Part shown: piece after piece, positions 27,588-39,015 of the stretch
How positions within the stretch are numbered: position 1 is the stretch's first letter
Layout of the letters: each line of letters begins with the position of its first letter
NCBI GenBank assembly: GCA_025060325.1
Contig: JANXBW010000001.1
Span: forward strand, 62,001-126,000
Reading direction: 5' to 3'
From: Thermoguttaceae bacterium
Lineage (GTDB): Bacteria > Planctomycetota > Planctomycetia > Pirellulales > Thermoguttaceae
Length of the DNA: 64,000 nucleotides
Notes under the pieces: generated by a model
What the model saw: only the letters and a program-made list of their open reading frames with translations
Told to the model about the DNA's origin: nothing
Database searches by the model: none
Made by a program: the position numbers and the translations under genes

Positions 27588-28895
27588 ATGGACGAGCATC
27601 CGCCCCGAGCCAACCGGCCGGCCTACCGTGACGCGGCAGAAAAAGACACGGTGCCCCGCACAAGCGGAACCCTCGGGGCTCAAGCGGGTGATCCAGGCGC
27701 TCCCCCGGCCAGAAGCTCCATCGGAGAGAATTGGCTCCATCAGGCTGACTTTTCCGACGACCTAGACGCGGACTTTCTTGCCTCCCAACCTGACCAAAGA
27801 AAACTTATTCGCATCGATCAGCCGCATCTGCCCTCGCATGCTCAAAGCCTCTCCCCTCAAGTGACGCCGCAAAAGCCCGAAAGCTCAGCGATAACCGCTT
27901 TGCCATCCACTGAGGGCCGGGGCGCAAGAAAGGCTTGGGGGATAAGCTCCGTCGAAAGTCAGGCGCTTGCCGCACGCAATTCCCTTGGAGAAGATGCACG
28001 GGCGTTTTCCGGATTAGTTACCCCGAATGAACAAGACCGGAATGAACAAGTATCTCCCGCGGGTTGCGGTCTGCCCGGTGACTTGCCAGATGTGGGCCCA
28101 GAGGTTGCGGCACTGGCCCCAGCGGTGGGCGCCCCTCCGCTTCAGCCCGCGCCTCATCGGCTCGAACGGCGACAAGTCGCGGACCCCGTCCAGCCAATCG
28201 AGGCGATCCTTGCTGCCCGGGGACTTTATAAGAGTTTCGTTCGGGGATCCACTCGGGTAGAAGTCCTCCGAGGGCTTGACCTGGAGGTTACTCCGGGCGA
28301 ATTCCTGGCGATTGTCGGCCACAGCGGCTCTGGCAAGAGTACGCTCCTTCACCTCCTTGCCACACTCGACCGTCCCGACGAAGGCGAGATTCACTTCCGC
28401 ACCCGGCGGATTGATAACATCTCCGCGCGTGGCCGAGACCGCCTCCGGAATCGGCACTTTGGGATGGTATTCCAGATGTACCATCTCCTGCCCGAGCTAA
28501 CAGCATTAGAAAACGTGATGCTGCCGCTTATGATTGGTCATGGTCCTCTGGGCCTAGTGACTCGTTGGCGGAGTTTTCGCCGACAAGCGTGGCAATGGTT
28601 GGAGGCGGTAGGACTGGCCCACCGAGCGCATCATAAGCCGAGGGAACTTTCCGGCGGAGAAATGCAACGGACCGCCATCGCCCGCGCGCTTGTGCACCGG
28701 CCCGACGTGCTTTTCGCTGACGAACCCACGGGGAACTTGGATCGCAAGACCGGCTGGGAAATCTTGGATCTTCTGCGTGCCTTGAACCGCCGAGAAAAGC
28801 TCACTATAGTCATGGTCACCCATGATCCGCAGGTGGCCCAGTCGGCCGATCGCATTTTGCAGTTGTTTGATGGCCGGCTTTATCCGGCAAGCTAA
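27588..28895 (+). CDS. LolD-type ABC transporter ATPase with long N-terminal extension
   Basis: ATP-binding subunit for the preceding permease. The C-terminal 230 residues form a complete ABC domain: Walker A GHSGSGKS at 244-251, the Q-loop in VFQMYHLLPELTALENV, the signature LSGGEMQR, Walker B VLFADEPTG, and the switch His in VMVTHDP. Before it lie about 205 residues rich in Pro, Ser, Ala, Gln and Asp with no recognisable fold. Family members are normally about 220-240 residues, so this roughly doubles the protein. The ATG at 27588 is 32 bases after the permease stop. An internal start would remove the tail, but the reading frame is continuous and composition stays coding-like. Confidence 0.88.
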   Translation: MDEHPPRANRPAYRDAAEKDTVPRTSGTLGAQAGDPGAPPARSSIGENWLHQADFSDDLDADFLASQPDQRKLIRIDQPHLPSHAQSLSPQVTPQKPESSAITALPSTEGRGARKAWGISSVESQALAARNSLGEDARAFSGLVTPNEQDRNEQVSPAGCGLPGDLPDVGPEVAALAPAVGAPPLQPAPHRLERRQVADPVQPIEAILAARGLYKSFVRGSTRVEVLRGLDLEVTPGEFLAIVGHSGSGKSTLLHLLATLDRPDEGEIHFRTRRIDNISARGRDRLRNRHFGMVFQMYHLLPELTALENVMLPLMIGHGPLGLVTRWRSFRRQAWQWLEAVGLAHRAHHKPRELSGGEMQRTAIARALVHRPDVLFADEPTGNLDRKTGWEILDLLRALNRREKLTIVMVTHDPQVAQSADRILQLFDGRLYPAS

Positions 28896-33486: not shown

Positions 33487-34401
33487 TTATTGGGCACCTC
33501 CGCCCGGGCGCTTCTTTCGGCGGGAACGCAGCGCAATGAGCGCCCGAGCCAGCCCCCAACTCACTCCCATCGAGACTGCAAGGAGCACTGTCGGAGGCAC
33601 TGGAATGACCGCCGGATCAATCCTGATTTCCGCGTCGTGTGAGGGAGGTCCGAACACGGGCCGGGGCTCCCTTCGCCCCTCCACAACGCCATAAACATCG
33701 AAATGAATTGTGGTACCTTCGGGCAGCAAACTCGGGTAACTCACGCGCACCCGGTAAACGTTTATCTGACCCAGCTCTGCCGTCGGGGCTGGGAACGAGT
33801 TCTCGAAATTAGCGATTGGCGAATCTCTTAAGGTGAAATCGCCAAGCGAGAATTCTTGCCATACTGTGTCTGGGCCAAAAACTCCGTGGCTGGGCAAATA
33901 AGTGCTGCCGAAGATCAGGGGCGTGGTACCGGGGCCGCCGGAGCCCGAAAAAACGGGTACTGAGGGAGTCGAAGGATCAGTGAATCCGCCCAAACCGCCG
34001 GTTGTAGCCGGAGTCAGCAGAAAGGCGAGGTCATTGCTCCCCGACCTTAAACTACTTGGATAGGCTGCGGAAAGCCGGACGTTGAAAATGGAGCCGAAAT
34101 TGTCCGTCGCCCCTACAGCCCAAAGTCGAAATTCGATTGCCGGCGAAGGCGGCAATTCCAGGACCCACGTTCGGTCATCAGGCCGGAAGTTCACCCCTTC
34201 GATATAAAGCTGCAATATTGGGGCAGCGGAAACACGGCCCCAGGCACTACTTACGAGGGCGAAGAGTGCGACAAGCAGCAACGCTCTAGGTAGCTGCGCA
34301 CGTGGGACGCTCGCTAAGTTGAAGTTCCCGGTTAATTTGCAGCTCTTTCGGAGGAGTCTCTCTCTCAACACCGCAAACCAGGGTCGCAATTCCTTAGCCA
34401 T
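33487..34401 (-). CDS. Secreted protein with C-terminal membrane-anchor sorting signal (paralogue A)
   Basis: Protein of 304 residues. A signal peptide with a long n-region ends near VSAAP (about residue 60). The central all-beta domain begins APILQLYIEGVNFRPDDRTWVL and carries LPSHGVFGPDTVWQEFSLGDF and GQINVYRVRVSYP. The C-terminus is a three-part sorting signal: a short proline motif (VIPVPP), a hydrophobic helix and a basic tail (RSRRKK). It resembles PEP-CTERM proteins, with VPP in place of the usual PEP. GAGGA precedes the ATG at 34401 by four bases. The family is of the planctomycete choice-of-anchor kind; function unknown, probably a surface matrix protein. A paralogue follows at 34609-35403. 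Confidence 0.78.
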   Translation of the reverse strand: MAKELRPWFAVLRERLLRKSCKLTGNFNLASVPRAQLPRALLLVALFALVSSAWGRVSAAPILQLYIEGVNFRPDDRTWVLELPPSPAIEFRLWAVGATDNFGSIFNVRLSAAYPSSLRSGSNDLAFLLTPATTGGLGGFTDPSTPSVPVFSGSGGPGTTPLIFGSTYLPSHGVFGPDTVWQEFSLGDFTLRDSPIANFENSFPAPTAELGQINVYRVRVSYPSLLPEGTTIHFDVYGVVEGRREPRPVFGPPSHDAEIRIDPAVIPVPPTVLLAVSMGVSWGLARALIALRSRRKKRPGGGAQ

Positions 34402-34608
34402 CGGTTCCTCGGAAGGTCAAATCCAAGCCAAAGTATCCTAGCCCGCTTCCGAGCCGACCCGCTAAGACTTCTACGACCCTTCCGGGAATTTTGTTCCAGA
34501 AAGCTGTGAAAAAAGAACATGCCCGCGAGTCTCAATGAACCGTCGTTTACCGAGGGGGTTTAGTTAAACGACGCGGTCTTCCGGCCAGAACGTATGGCTC
34601 TCGGCGTT

Positions 34609-35403
34609 CTATGTCCCTCCCAACTTGTGCCGAAAATAGTGCCTGATAAATCCCACACCTCCGCCAGCAAGCAGCCAGAGTGTGAGAACAAGAGATGGGG
34701 GATTTGGCACGACATTGACCTCGGCATCGTGAGAAAATGGCGCATGGACAGGCTGGCGCCGACAGTTTCTCAACACATACCCGTAAGCGTCGAAATGCAG
34801 CCGATAGTCCATTAGCGACATTCCACCAGTGTGACGCACCGAAACATCGTACACGTTGATCTGGCCACGCAGCTTCCCAGGCTGTGGGAAGCTGGTCACA
34901 AAATCTCCAAGCGGCGAATCCTTGAGGACAAAATCACCCAACCGGAATTCCTGCCAAACGGTCCCGGGCCCAAACACGCCGTGCGAAGGCAACAGGGAGG
35001 TACCGGAAATAACCGGACGGCTCCCCGCCGGACCGGCCTGGACGAAACTCACCGCCGGTGGATAAGACGGATCAAAAAAACCCCCTAAACCTCCGGTAAC
35101 GCTGGGTCTCCAGCTGAACAATAGGTCATACCCACCGGAACGAAGGACACTCGCGTAAGCTACCGAAACGCGTACGTCGTAAATCGGTCCGCGAGGATTC
35201 GGGTTTCCGATTATCCACAGGCGAAAGTCCACACTCCCATCAGGATTTGGAGCACCCGAATACACCCAACTCTGTCCGACCGGGTCATACTTCCCCCCTT
35301 CGACATATAGTTGCAGTATGGGCACGCCCAGCGCGGGCTGCGAAGCGACGACTAGTTGACAAATTGCATAGGTAGCCACCAGCATTACGCGACAAGCGCT
35401 CAT
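34609..35403 (-). CDS. Secreted protein with C-terminal membrane-anchor sorting signal (paralogue B)
   Basis: Protein of 264 residues, paralogue of the gene 207 bases downstream. A signal peptide (about 1-27) precedes the same beta domain: VPILQLYVEGGKYDPVGQSW, GGLGGFFDPSYP, LPSHGVFGPGTVWQEFRLGD and GQINVYDVSV align with paralogue A through the whole domain. The C-terminus again has a proline motif (VVPNPPSLV), a hydrophobic helix and a weakly basic end (RHYFRHK). A strong GGAGGTGA lies seven bases before the ATG, unusual for this window. Tandem order and similarity show duplication. Differences lie in the loops and in the anchor. Function unknown. Confidence 0.78.
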   Translation of the reverse strand: MSACRVMLVATYAICQLVVASQPALGVPILQLYVEGGKYDPVGQSWVYSGAPNPDGSVDFRLWIIGNPNPRGPIYDVRVSVAYASVLRSGGYDLLFSWRPSVTGGLGGFFDPSYPPAVSFVQAGPAGSRPVISGTSLLPSHGVFGPGTVWQEFRLGDFVLKDSPLGDFVTSFPQPGKLRGQINVYDVSVRHTGGMSLMDYRLHFDAYGYVLRNCRRQPVHAPFSHDAEVNVVPNPPSLVLTLWLLAGGGVGFIRHYFRHKLGGT

Positions 35404-36197: not shown

Positions 36198-37782
36198 ATG
36201 AAGTCGCTATCCTGCTTTTCCGAGGCCGTGCTGGCAGGTAGCCTCCTTGCCCTTCTTTGGCTCGGCAACACACTCGGTTGGGGGCCTTCCCTTAGCTGGG
36301 CTGCCGAGGGCAAGTTTAATGTGTTAATGATTTGCGTGGATGATCTTCGGCCCGAACTGGGCTATTATGGTCTTCGCACAATAAAGACGCCCAGATAGAC
36401 CGGTTAGCGGAAAGCGGCTTTACTTTCTTGAGGGCTTATTGCCAACAACCCATTTGCCAACAAGACATATGTAATCCTCCGCGCGTAACGCTTCTTTTCG
36501 GCCTTCGACCGCACTCCGCACGAATCTACGACCTCCAAACTCACCCCCGTAAGAGGCTGGCAGACCGAGTAAGTCTCCCAGAACACTTCAAGAAGCACGG
36601 TTACGTGACCATGGGTTTAAGCAAGCTCTCCCACAACGGGGCTTGACGATTGGCAGAGCTGGAGTCTGCCCCACCGGTCCCCCTCCGGACCGGCCTACGG
36701 GAAGCCGGAGACGATTGCCCGGATTCGAGCAGAGACGGAACGGCTACCTCGGGAGCAGGGGCCTGCCACGGAGGTGCTCGAGGTCGATCCAAAGAGCGGC
36801 ACAGCGCTTCGCGTTAGCCCGCCACGATATCGAGTGCGGAGGCCGGCCTGGGAAGATCCAGATGTGCCAGACGAAGCCCTCCCGGACGGCAAGACCACCC
36901 TCGCGGCCATCGCGCGTTTGGAAAAGTTCCGAGACCGGCGGTTCTTCCTCGCCGTGGGCTATTTGAAACCGCACCTGCCCTTTGTGGCACCGTCACGATA
37001 TTTCCAGCTTTATGATCGCAATGAGGTCCCTCTTGCGCCGTGGCCCCAGGCACCGCGAAATTGCCCTCCCATCGCCCTCCACGATTGGGGCGAACTGCGC
37101 GCGTATGAAGGGATTCCCGCTAAAGGTCCGCTTTTAGAAGAGACGGCGCGCGACTTTGTATGGGCCTACTACGCTGCGACGAGCTACGTGGACGCCCCGG
37201 TGGGAAAACTGCTTGATGCCTTAGACCGGCTGGGACTAACGGACCGAACAATTGTTGTGCTCTGGGGTGACCATGGCTGGCATTTGGGAGATAACGGCCT
37301 GTGGTGTAAACACACCAATTTCGAACGGGCCACGCGATCGCCGCTCATTTTTCGGGTACCAGGGGCGAAAAACCCCGGCGCAAAGATTGACGCCCTGGTG
37401 GAGTTTGTCGACATCTACCCCACCCTATGCGAGCTATGTGGCCTACCTACTCCGGAAGGTTTGGAAGGAATAAGCCTTGTGCCTTTCACAGAAAATCCCG
37501 ACCGCCCCTGGAAAAAAAGCAGCCTTTGGCCAGTATCCCTGGGACAAAGCGATAGGGTATTCGATGGGGACAGAACGTTACCGCTAAACGGAATGGCGGG
37601 GCGCCGTTGGCTCAATAGTTGCCCGCGAACTTTGCGATCACCAGACTGACCCTTGAGAGAGCGACAACTTAGCCTATCGGCCGGAGCTTAAACCGTTGAT
37701 CCAAAAGTTAAGCGGCAAGCTGCGAGCCGGGTGGAAAGCCGCGCTCCCCGCCGATTACGCGGACCAGGTTGGCAATCGCTGA
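36198..37782 (+). pseudogene. Sulfatase pseudogene (iduronate-2-sulfatase type)
   Basis: Reading across frames gives a full-length sulfatase of about 520 residues: signal peptide, VLMICVDDLRPELGYYG, IDRLAESGFTFLRAYC, RIYDLQTH, LPEHFKKHGYVTMGLSK, DDWQSWSLPHRSPSG, FLAVGYLKPHLPFVAP, WGDHGWHLGDNGLWCKHTNFE, QYPWDKAIGYSMG and LAYRPELKPLIQKL. It is broken by a 1-base loss near 36393, a 1-base gain in a G-run (36638-36641), a 1-base gain in an A-run (37512-37518), a TAA after GTERYR and a TGA after HQTDP. The catalytic C-x-P-S-R, whose cysteine becomes formylglycine, reads CNPPR here and follows a five-codon tandem duplication. The enzyme would have desulfated an algal or animal-type polysaccharide in the periplasm; it cannot be made now. 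Confidence 0.93.
36443..36472 (+). repeat. 15-bp tandem duplication at the sulfatase active site
   Basis: CAACAACCCATTTGC is followed directly by CAACAAGACATATGT, 11 of 15 bases identical and codon-aligned, so QQPIC is repeated as QQDIC just before the CNPPR remnant of the catalytic motif. Divergence between the copies suggests the duplication is not recent. Confidence 0.75.
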
Positions 37783-37866: not shown

Positions 37867-39015
37867 TCAACGGTCTTCAGGAGACGCCAACCGAGCAAGC
37901 CCCAATTGCCACGGGATCTCCCCGTAGACCTTGCCGGCCATGTTCTCGTCGCTTACTCCCTGAAAAAGCATCGTGAGGTTTTGCGGATCCACCTCGAGAA
38001 ATTCGTCGTACCCAGCCCGAATCAACTCGCCATGGCTAAAAGAGTGACACCAAGGCTGGTCCGCAAAGCGGGCATTCTTAAGGCCAAGAAACGGCCGCTC
38101 CCAACTGTCAGCCACTGGTGTCCACTTGCCCTCGAGGCTATCGGCAGTATACGCCTTGTAATACCGACGGGAGCCGCGCTGGGCCTCGATCACAGCAAGA
38201 TATGTTCCTGTTCCTTTCAGCCGATAAATATGTCCCGCCTCAAAAATGTCCGCCTGCAGGACCACTTGAGGGAGTGACCAACCACGGGGAAAGTCCTCCC
38301 GGCGGGTTTCCGCCCGCCACATCCGACCATCCAGGGACGTAAAGAACAGATGAGCCTTTTTCTCATCGCAAATTACCCAAAAATCAATCCATCTTTCCAC
38401 ATTAGCTGGCCCGGTTGGGTAAAGAAAGTCGGGCGCCGACCAGCCGGAGGGATCCTCCAACCGACTGTTTGTGGAAAAGGCTGGCTGGAGGGCGGGCTTT
38501 CGGTTCGGATCGGTTGTTTGGTAAATCAGATACCATTTTTCGTGTGGACGATAGTAAAAGACCTGCGGGGCACAGTAATACCCCTCGGTAATACCCAGGA
38601 GCACACGAACAGACGGCGAGGCTGACCAATCGGAAAGGATAACATATTCGACCTGGTGAGTTCGTGGCCGGCCACGAACCGTACAAAACAGGTGCCAGGC
38701 ATTGCCGAAGCGGACAACCGACGGATCCTTGATCGAAAAGAAAATCTGTGCACCGAGCGGTTCCCGAGCCGACAAGATTGGCGGCGAAATCTCCCAGAAA
38801 AATTTCCCCGTGCGAAACACCTCCGGCAATTCCGCACCGTGCACCGGCGTGGCTACTCGCCCCGTTAACTCAACTCCGTAGGAGAAGCCCAAAACCAAAA
38901 ACAAAGGAAACGCATTTGCTAAGGCACCTGGTGCCGCCCACCGGCCTGGCTGGCCAGTTCGGGAGGAAAACCACCCTTCTCCGCCGCGGACGCAGAGTAG
39001 TGTTGAGTTCTTCAT
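37867..39015 (-). CDS. GH62 alpha-L-arabinofuranosidase
   Basis: Secreted glycosidase of 382 residues that removes arabinofuranosyl side groups from xylan or arabinan. Five-bladed propeller signatures of GH62 are clear: IKDPSVVRFGNAWHLFCTVRG, SDWSASPSV, GYYCAPQVFYYRPHEKWYLI, DPSGWSAPDF. The likely catalytic residues are Asp97 (KDPS), Asp211 (WIDFWVICD) and Glu259 (FEAGHIY), all present. The N-terminal 60 residues contain a basic stretch then a hydrophobic run ending near HGAE, an atypically long signal peptide. GGAGGG seven bases before the ATG at 39015 is a good start. It converges with the sulfatase relic. Confidence 0.9.
   Translation of the reverse strand: MKNSTLLCVRGGEGWFSSRTGQPGRWAAPGALANAFPLFLVLGFSYGVELTGRVATPVHGAELPEVFRTGKFFWEISPPILSAREPLGAQIFFSIKDPSVVRFGNAWHLFCTVRGRPRTHQVEYVILSDWSASPSVRVLLGITEGYYCAPQVFYYRPHEKWYLIYQTTDPNRKPALQPAFSTNSRLEDPSGWSAPDFLYPTGPANVERWIDFWVICDEKKAHLFFTSLDGRMWRAETRREDFPRGWSLPQVVLQADIFEAGHIYRLKGTGTYLAVIEAQRGSRRYYKAYTADSLEGKWTPVADSWERPFLGLKNARFADQPWCHSFSHGELIRAGYDEFLEVDPQNLTMLFQGVSDENMAGKVYGEIPWQLGLARLASPEDR

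Follow-up and report, generated by a model that had tools for sequence, protein, structure and literature searches.

Two choice-of-anchor N paralogues of a Thermoguttaceae bacterium carry glutamate-free tails that probably descend from PEP-CTERM sorting signals

The PEP-CTERM/exosortase sorting system and the choice-of-anchor N domain family (NF038141) are both already known. A PEP-CTERM tail is recognized by a Pro-Glu-Pro motif, a hydrophobic helix and a basic cluster, on a protein with an N-terminal signal peptide and in a genome that holds an exosortase together with exopolysaccharide genes. According to the defining paper (PMC1569441), the PEP motif is near-invariant. What is new in the locus described here is a loss of this supposedly near-invariant glutamate that is linked to one protein family and occurs in a genome with a single exosortase. 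No report of glutamate-free PEP tails was found among the listed titles and abstract openings in searches of open-licence literature.

The window (the whole stretch of 64,000 nucleotides that was analyzed) comes from a genome, G000, of 4.78 Mb in 89 contigs with a completeness of 95.6%. Two neighboring genes lie on its minus strand, the upstream gene B (34609–35403, 264 amino acids) and the downstream gene A (33487–34401, 304 amino acids), separated by 207 bases (34402–34608). The original prediction had described them as paralogues, and this description held: BLASTP gave 44% identity across 267 aligned columns (E 9e-66), and each protein has both of the motifs named at that time, LPSHGVFGP-TVWQEF and GQINVY. 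Both reading frames are intact, with a ribosome site 5′ of the ATG (AGGA-type in A, GGAGG in B). The start of A leads into an unusually long basic stretch ahead of the hydrophobic signal; an alternative TTG start at codon 41 adjoins the signal and lacks a good ribosome site. Judged by eye, the N-termini of both proteins include a hydrophobic stretch, from which A and B are probably secreted. The two proteins are members of the choice-of-anchor N family, with NF038141 scores above the curated cut-off of 40 bits (124.7 bits for A, residues 59–258; 124.2 bits for B, residues 27–228) and matches that cover the whole domain (positions 1–184 and 2–184 of the 184 in the profile). Pfam searches returned no match for either protein, and a search of the genome for further NF038141 members found none beyond these two. 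The AlphaFold2 model of B (mean pLDDT 87.7, with 55–72 in the tail blocks) predicts a beta-sandwich domain plus one helix (residues 236–260). Structural comparison of this model placed integrin leg domains first, while pilins, adhesins, cohesins and others ranked lower (Z at most 8.9), and the TM-score by query did not exceed 0.33 among the 50 Foldseek matches listed. Assignment of a function to B from its fold was abandoned because the beta sandwich may reflect merely a common arrangement.

Other genes near the pair also deserve mention. A broken sulfatase gene (36198–37649, plus strand) opens with an ATG, a signal-like start and sulfatase-like sequence, is then interrupted by stops and frame changes, and continues with an intact C-terminal part (Sulfatase, 73.4 bits). 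It is adjoined by a gene for a secreted-looking glycoside hydrolase of family 62 (37867–39015, minus strand, 113 bits), a family linked to the removal of arabinose from xylan. An ABC transporter ATPase (27588–28895, plus strand) has an extension of about 225 residues, and its ATPase domain begins only after this, at residue 227.

The C-terminal tails are IPVPPTVLLAVSMGVSWGLARALIALRSRRKKRPGGGAQ in A (33490–33606, minus strand) and VVPNPPSLVLTLWLLAGGGVGFIRHYFRHKLGGT in B (34612–34713, minus strand). The layout foreseen for them was a proline motif, a helix and a basic tail; translation, alignment and hydropathy recovered the proline motif followed by hydrophobic and then basic residues in each, and the model of B also predicts the helix. 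The motifs themselves, which had been read as VPP and VPNPP, were corrected on alignment to I-P-V-P-P-T in A and V-P-N-P-P-S in B, so that both tails have P-x-P-P, in which V or N occupies the position of the PEP glutamate. The whole proteins and their tails gave no reported match to TIGR02595 or PF07589 at E 10, in a search from which most matches above E 0.1 were filtered out, and the tails did not match TIGR03370 (VPLPA-CTERM). Compared with a model of the tails of other genomes, the B tail scored 17.5 bits, a value that none of 300 shuffles reached and that is like the 17.0 bits of the VPEPSP tail from its own genome. The A tail scored 2.2 bits, and 12 of 300 shuffles were as high. A regular expression for PxP followed by a hydrophobic stretch and basic residues at the end, drafted after A and B had been seen, matched these two alone among 277 open reading frames (stop to stop, at least 100 amino acids, from the window and contig C29). 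Since A and B have no PEP and match no model, we file them not as strict PEP-CTERM proteins but as a PEP-CTERM-derived variant that probably works like PEP-CTERM.

The genome encodes one exosortase and, besides A and B, four proteins whose tails have PEP. The original prediction would have been refuted by the lack of an exosortase and of other tail-bearing proteins, an outcome that did not occur. The exosortase, located in contig C29, scored 193.7 bits with PF09721 and 126.1 bits with TIGR02602 (cut-off 105.55), and its CSG, NVFR and HDLAG motifs correspond to the Cys, Asn-x-x-Arg and His motifs of PMC1569441. The gene is part of a polysaccharide locus in which an EpsI-like gene is found one gene away (45.9 bits, cut-off 42.8) and an export protein, a tyrosine-kinase/chain-length protein and a PrsT-like TPR protein are recognized below their cut-offs; exosortase and exopolysaccharide genes, the combination expected of a PEP-CTERM genome, thus occur together. 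The PF09721 search found no second exosortase in this genome, and the idea of another one serving the variant tails was dropped for that reason. The four PEP tails have the motifs IPEPGT, VPEPSP, VPEPGM and VPEPPT, the last of them (VVPEPPTGG) showing the same P-P context as A and B with the glutamate present. A PF07589 search at E 10 gave four matches (one tail above the cut-off, two tails under it and a stretch away from the C-terminus), and the fourth PEP tail was recovered outside these matches by the other-genome tail model.

An exosortase was detected in 120 of 146 genomes of the order, and in all ten genomes of a smaller set, nine with the choice-of-anchor N family and one, G043, without it. 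Because it is so common in the order, its presence is weak evidence, and co-occurrence was dropped as proof of tail function. G043 (L067/L048), of the same genus as the window's genome, has an exosortase, no choice-of-anchor N protein that could be found, and a single match to the model of other genomes' tails, IPEPNT, preceded by sequence that resembles the L002 repeat protein of the window's genome. In G130, of the same taxonomic family and 89% complete, nine tails matched at E 0.001 or below and no exosortase match was obtained; assembly gaps or another enzyme may account for this.

The choice-of-anchor N family is rare in the order, where NF038141 identified 12 proteins in 10 of 396 genomes, as well as in the class (6 of 397 genomes). 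Seven of the 12 proteins, A and B included, lack the middle glutamate: it is replaced by V in A and in G071, by N in B, and by A in G102 (same genus), G482, G653 and G639. Glutamate is present in G017, G584, G008 and two proteins of G056 and, beyond the order, in G380 and G297. A scan of named genomes returned 12 loci, of which L031–L034 appear to repeat genomes already counted and L040 to repeat G297; the seven further loci left include six with Glu and one, from an alphaproteobacterium, with Thr. The G584 tail (a Thermogutta MAG, L032/L151) follows that of G017 as far as VALASFLG and is wholly different from there on, which suggests a shifted frame in either the gene or the assembly. The tail alignment, of 11 rows, shows no variation at either proline. 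In a tree of 21 domains without their tails, B and the G102 protein form a sister pair (95/92), with A branching outside it (97/98); therefore, the duplication predates the split of the G000 and G102 species, and the A copy is absent from G102 or was missed there. All three proteins are without glutamate and have three different residues in its place (V, N and A), with both prolines kept through the duplication and the split, at 44–63% identity. On the best tree, E must have been gained or lost three times, two of these changes being forced by well-supported branches; the tree does not resolve the deeper branches.

The loss of glutamate could be a general feature of the tails in these genomes, and other tails were examined as controls. 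Seven genomes were searched using the other-genome tail model, and matches were read by eye. In the six genomes that hold choice-of-anchor N proteins, PEP was present in 104 of 106 other tails (75/76 in G454, 14/15 in G071, 8/8 in G017, 4/4 in G000, 2/2 in G102 and 1/1 in G453) and a residue other than Glu in two, whereas six of the seven choice-of-anchor N tails of the same genomes lack E. Fisher's p, 8e-8 (4e-7 at the first count), is given as a description and not as a test, the rows having shared ancestry. Two of the four G000 tails, missed by the tail model, were added from the PF07589 search. All matches were read in G454 (84), G071 (18) and G453 (5); those left unread (3 of 13 in G017, 2 of 8 in G102, 1 of 7 in G000) were all at E 0.4 or higher. 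Matches other than P-x-P tails were dropped (seven in G454, two in G071, one in G017, and three each in G102, G453 and G000). With a second tail model, the best match in each of 30 genomes of the taxonomic family was a choice-of-anchor N tail with PAP in two and another tail with PEP in 23; of the rest, three could not be placed and two repeat tails already counted. As a check for bias, E was replaced by A, V or N in 72 tails, and 70, 69 and 66 of them, respectively, stayed above 18.5 bits (71 with E). Most tails differing only at the glutamate would therefore have been found, while one diverged as far as that of A (2.2 bits) would escape a tail-model search. A further control was a protein family identified by its domain across 101 genomes of the taxonomic family: PEP was present in four of four proteins, in a family that is small and was first noticed through its PEP tail. 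These results indicated that the substitution of glutamate is concentrated in the choice-of-anchor N family.

Several of the glutamate-free tails in relatives are still connected to the known sorting models. TIGR02595 (cut-off 16) was passed by the PAP tails of G653 (18.7 bits) and G639 (20.3 bits), by the alphaproteobacterial PTP tail (21.2 bits) and by a PVP tail on another protein of G071 (21.7 bits). The PAPP tail of G102 remained below, with 11.1 bits for TIGR02595 and 17.1 bits for PF07589 (cut-off 20.7), and the choice-of-anchor N PVP tail of G071 scored best with VPLPA-CTERM (19.6 bits), below the cut-off of 25.35. These short models are permissive: at 17.0 bits (cut-off 15.9), the LPXTG model accepts the G639 PAP tail too. 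Taken together, the relatives form a graded series from PEP (G017) through PAP and PAPP to PVPP and PNPP. This series is the main evidence that the A and B tails probably descend from PEP-CTERM. The variant exosortase-type signal considered in the original prediction is partly supported: the relatives speak for descent from the known PEP-CTERM signal, of which the tails would be a variant and not a new type.

A tail subclass with the pattern P[AE]PS..L.SMG..G..WRRR, considered as a feature of choice-of-anchor N proteins, was not upheld as a class. Its model matched 47 of 101 genomes of the taxonomic family at E 0.001 and exceeded 50 bits only in G639 (seven matches), G653, G482 and G130 (one each), with none in the window's genome. 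G639 is, by contig and place, the same genome as G454, where SMG occurs with PEP and PAP on proteins that look unrelated by eye. G454 (L159–L162, L086) has two exosortases, and many of its tails resemble either of two subtypes, exemplified by ALGLLGLAWYGRRRR and LISMGLMGLAIAWRRRK and borne by unrelated-looking proteins; there might be one tail subtype per exosortase.

We consider it reasonably probable that A and B are duplicated, probably secreted choice-of-anchor N beta-sandwich proteins whose PEP-CTERM-derived tails, despite having no glutamate, are recognized and cut by the lone exosortase. This proposal builds on the genes, their family, the anatomy of the tails, the exosortase and EpsI-like genes of the polysaccharide locus and the intermediates found in relatives. 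A and B would be exported by Sec and lose their signal peptides, and the tail helix would then hold them in the inner membrane. The exosortase would recognize the P-x-P motif without its glutamate, cut the tail and hand the proteins towards the cell surface or the exopolysaccharide. Most likely, the one enzyme handles PEP and PxP tails alike, with the glutamate dispensable or merely tuning the processing. Conservation of the prolines around a free middle residue suggests that the motif is still in use and that glutamate is the part that is not needed.

The main rival, which we regard as somewhat unlikely, is that the PEP-CTERM-derived tails are not cut when glutamate is missing and serve as plain anchors, leaving A and B as single-pass inner-membrane proteins that face the periplasm. 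The near-invariance of PEP in PMC1569441 and its presence in 104 of 106 other tails argue for this and against shared processing, as do the failure of A and B to reach any sorting-signal model and the low score of the A tail, equalled by some shuffles; the permissive models and the frequency of exosortases in the order further detract from shared processing. However, the prolines, their position, the helix and the basic end have outlasted both the duplication and the separation from G102. Retention of P-x-P would be unexpected in a mere anchor, and TIGR02595 still accepts two tails from relatives that have no glutamate.

A different reading is that the tails form a distinct sorting subclass, read by another enzyme or having glutamate selected against to slow the processing. 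The enrichment of non-Glu tails (7 of 12 in the family versus 2 of 106 others), the two exosortases in each of three genomes with PAP or PVP tails (G071, G453 and G454) and the subthreshold preference of the G071 tail for VPLPA-CTERM agree with it. Nevertheless, G000 and G102 each have one exosortase by the PF09721 search and yet combine PEP and non-PEP tails, and the S-M-G tails of G454 include both PEP and PAP; we consider this subclass improbable. It is slightly less improbable, although still unlikely, that in Pirellulales choice-of-anchor N proteins the glutamate-free P-x-P is a distinct signal with glutamate selected against, a single exosortase having PEP tails as fast substrates and PxP tails as slow or retained ones; in that case, the middle residue would set the time a protein spends in the membrane. 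Decay of the tails into degenerating copies with no sorting or anchoring function left is very improbable, for although the A tail scores poorly, the family is confined to so few genomes of the order and a broken sulfatase gene adjoins, both frames are intact with ribosome sites, and the prolines, the helix and the basic ends have survived divergence to 44–63% identity.

The case is of moderate interest, since the PEP residues are described as having an undefined role. With glutamate loss linked to one family in a one-exosortase genome, the role of the residue can be tested with natural variants: the four PEP tails, the two glutamate-free tails of the same layout and the series in relatives are natural substitutions for testing what the enzyme reads. 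The results also suggest that present PEP-CTERM models miss some descendants.

Among known systems, A and B resemble PEP-CTERM/exosortase substrates in the C-terminal place of the tail, its proline motif, helix and basic cluster, and in belonging to a genome with an exosortase and EpsI, and they differ in having P-V-P and P-N-P for P-E-P and in matching no model. They share the full-length domain with the choice-of-anchor N family, members of which have PEP-CTERM-like tails in other phyla, but, as in most members of the order, the tail glutamate is absent. VPLPA-CTERM (TIGR03370), going by the name of the model, is also a P-x-P signal without glutamate, but A and B do not match it. The C29 exosortase has its best NCBIfam bit score with XrtD (TIGR04152), over the first half of that model, but this score is 166.3 bits against a cut-off of 400, covers positions 3–245 of 486, and XrtD ranks top for nine of the ten other exosortases scanned as well.
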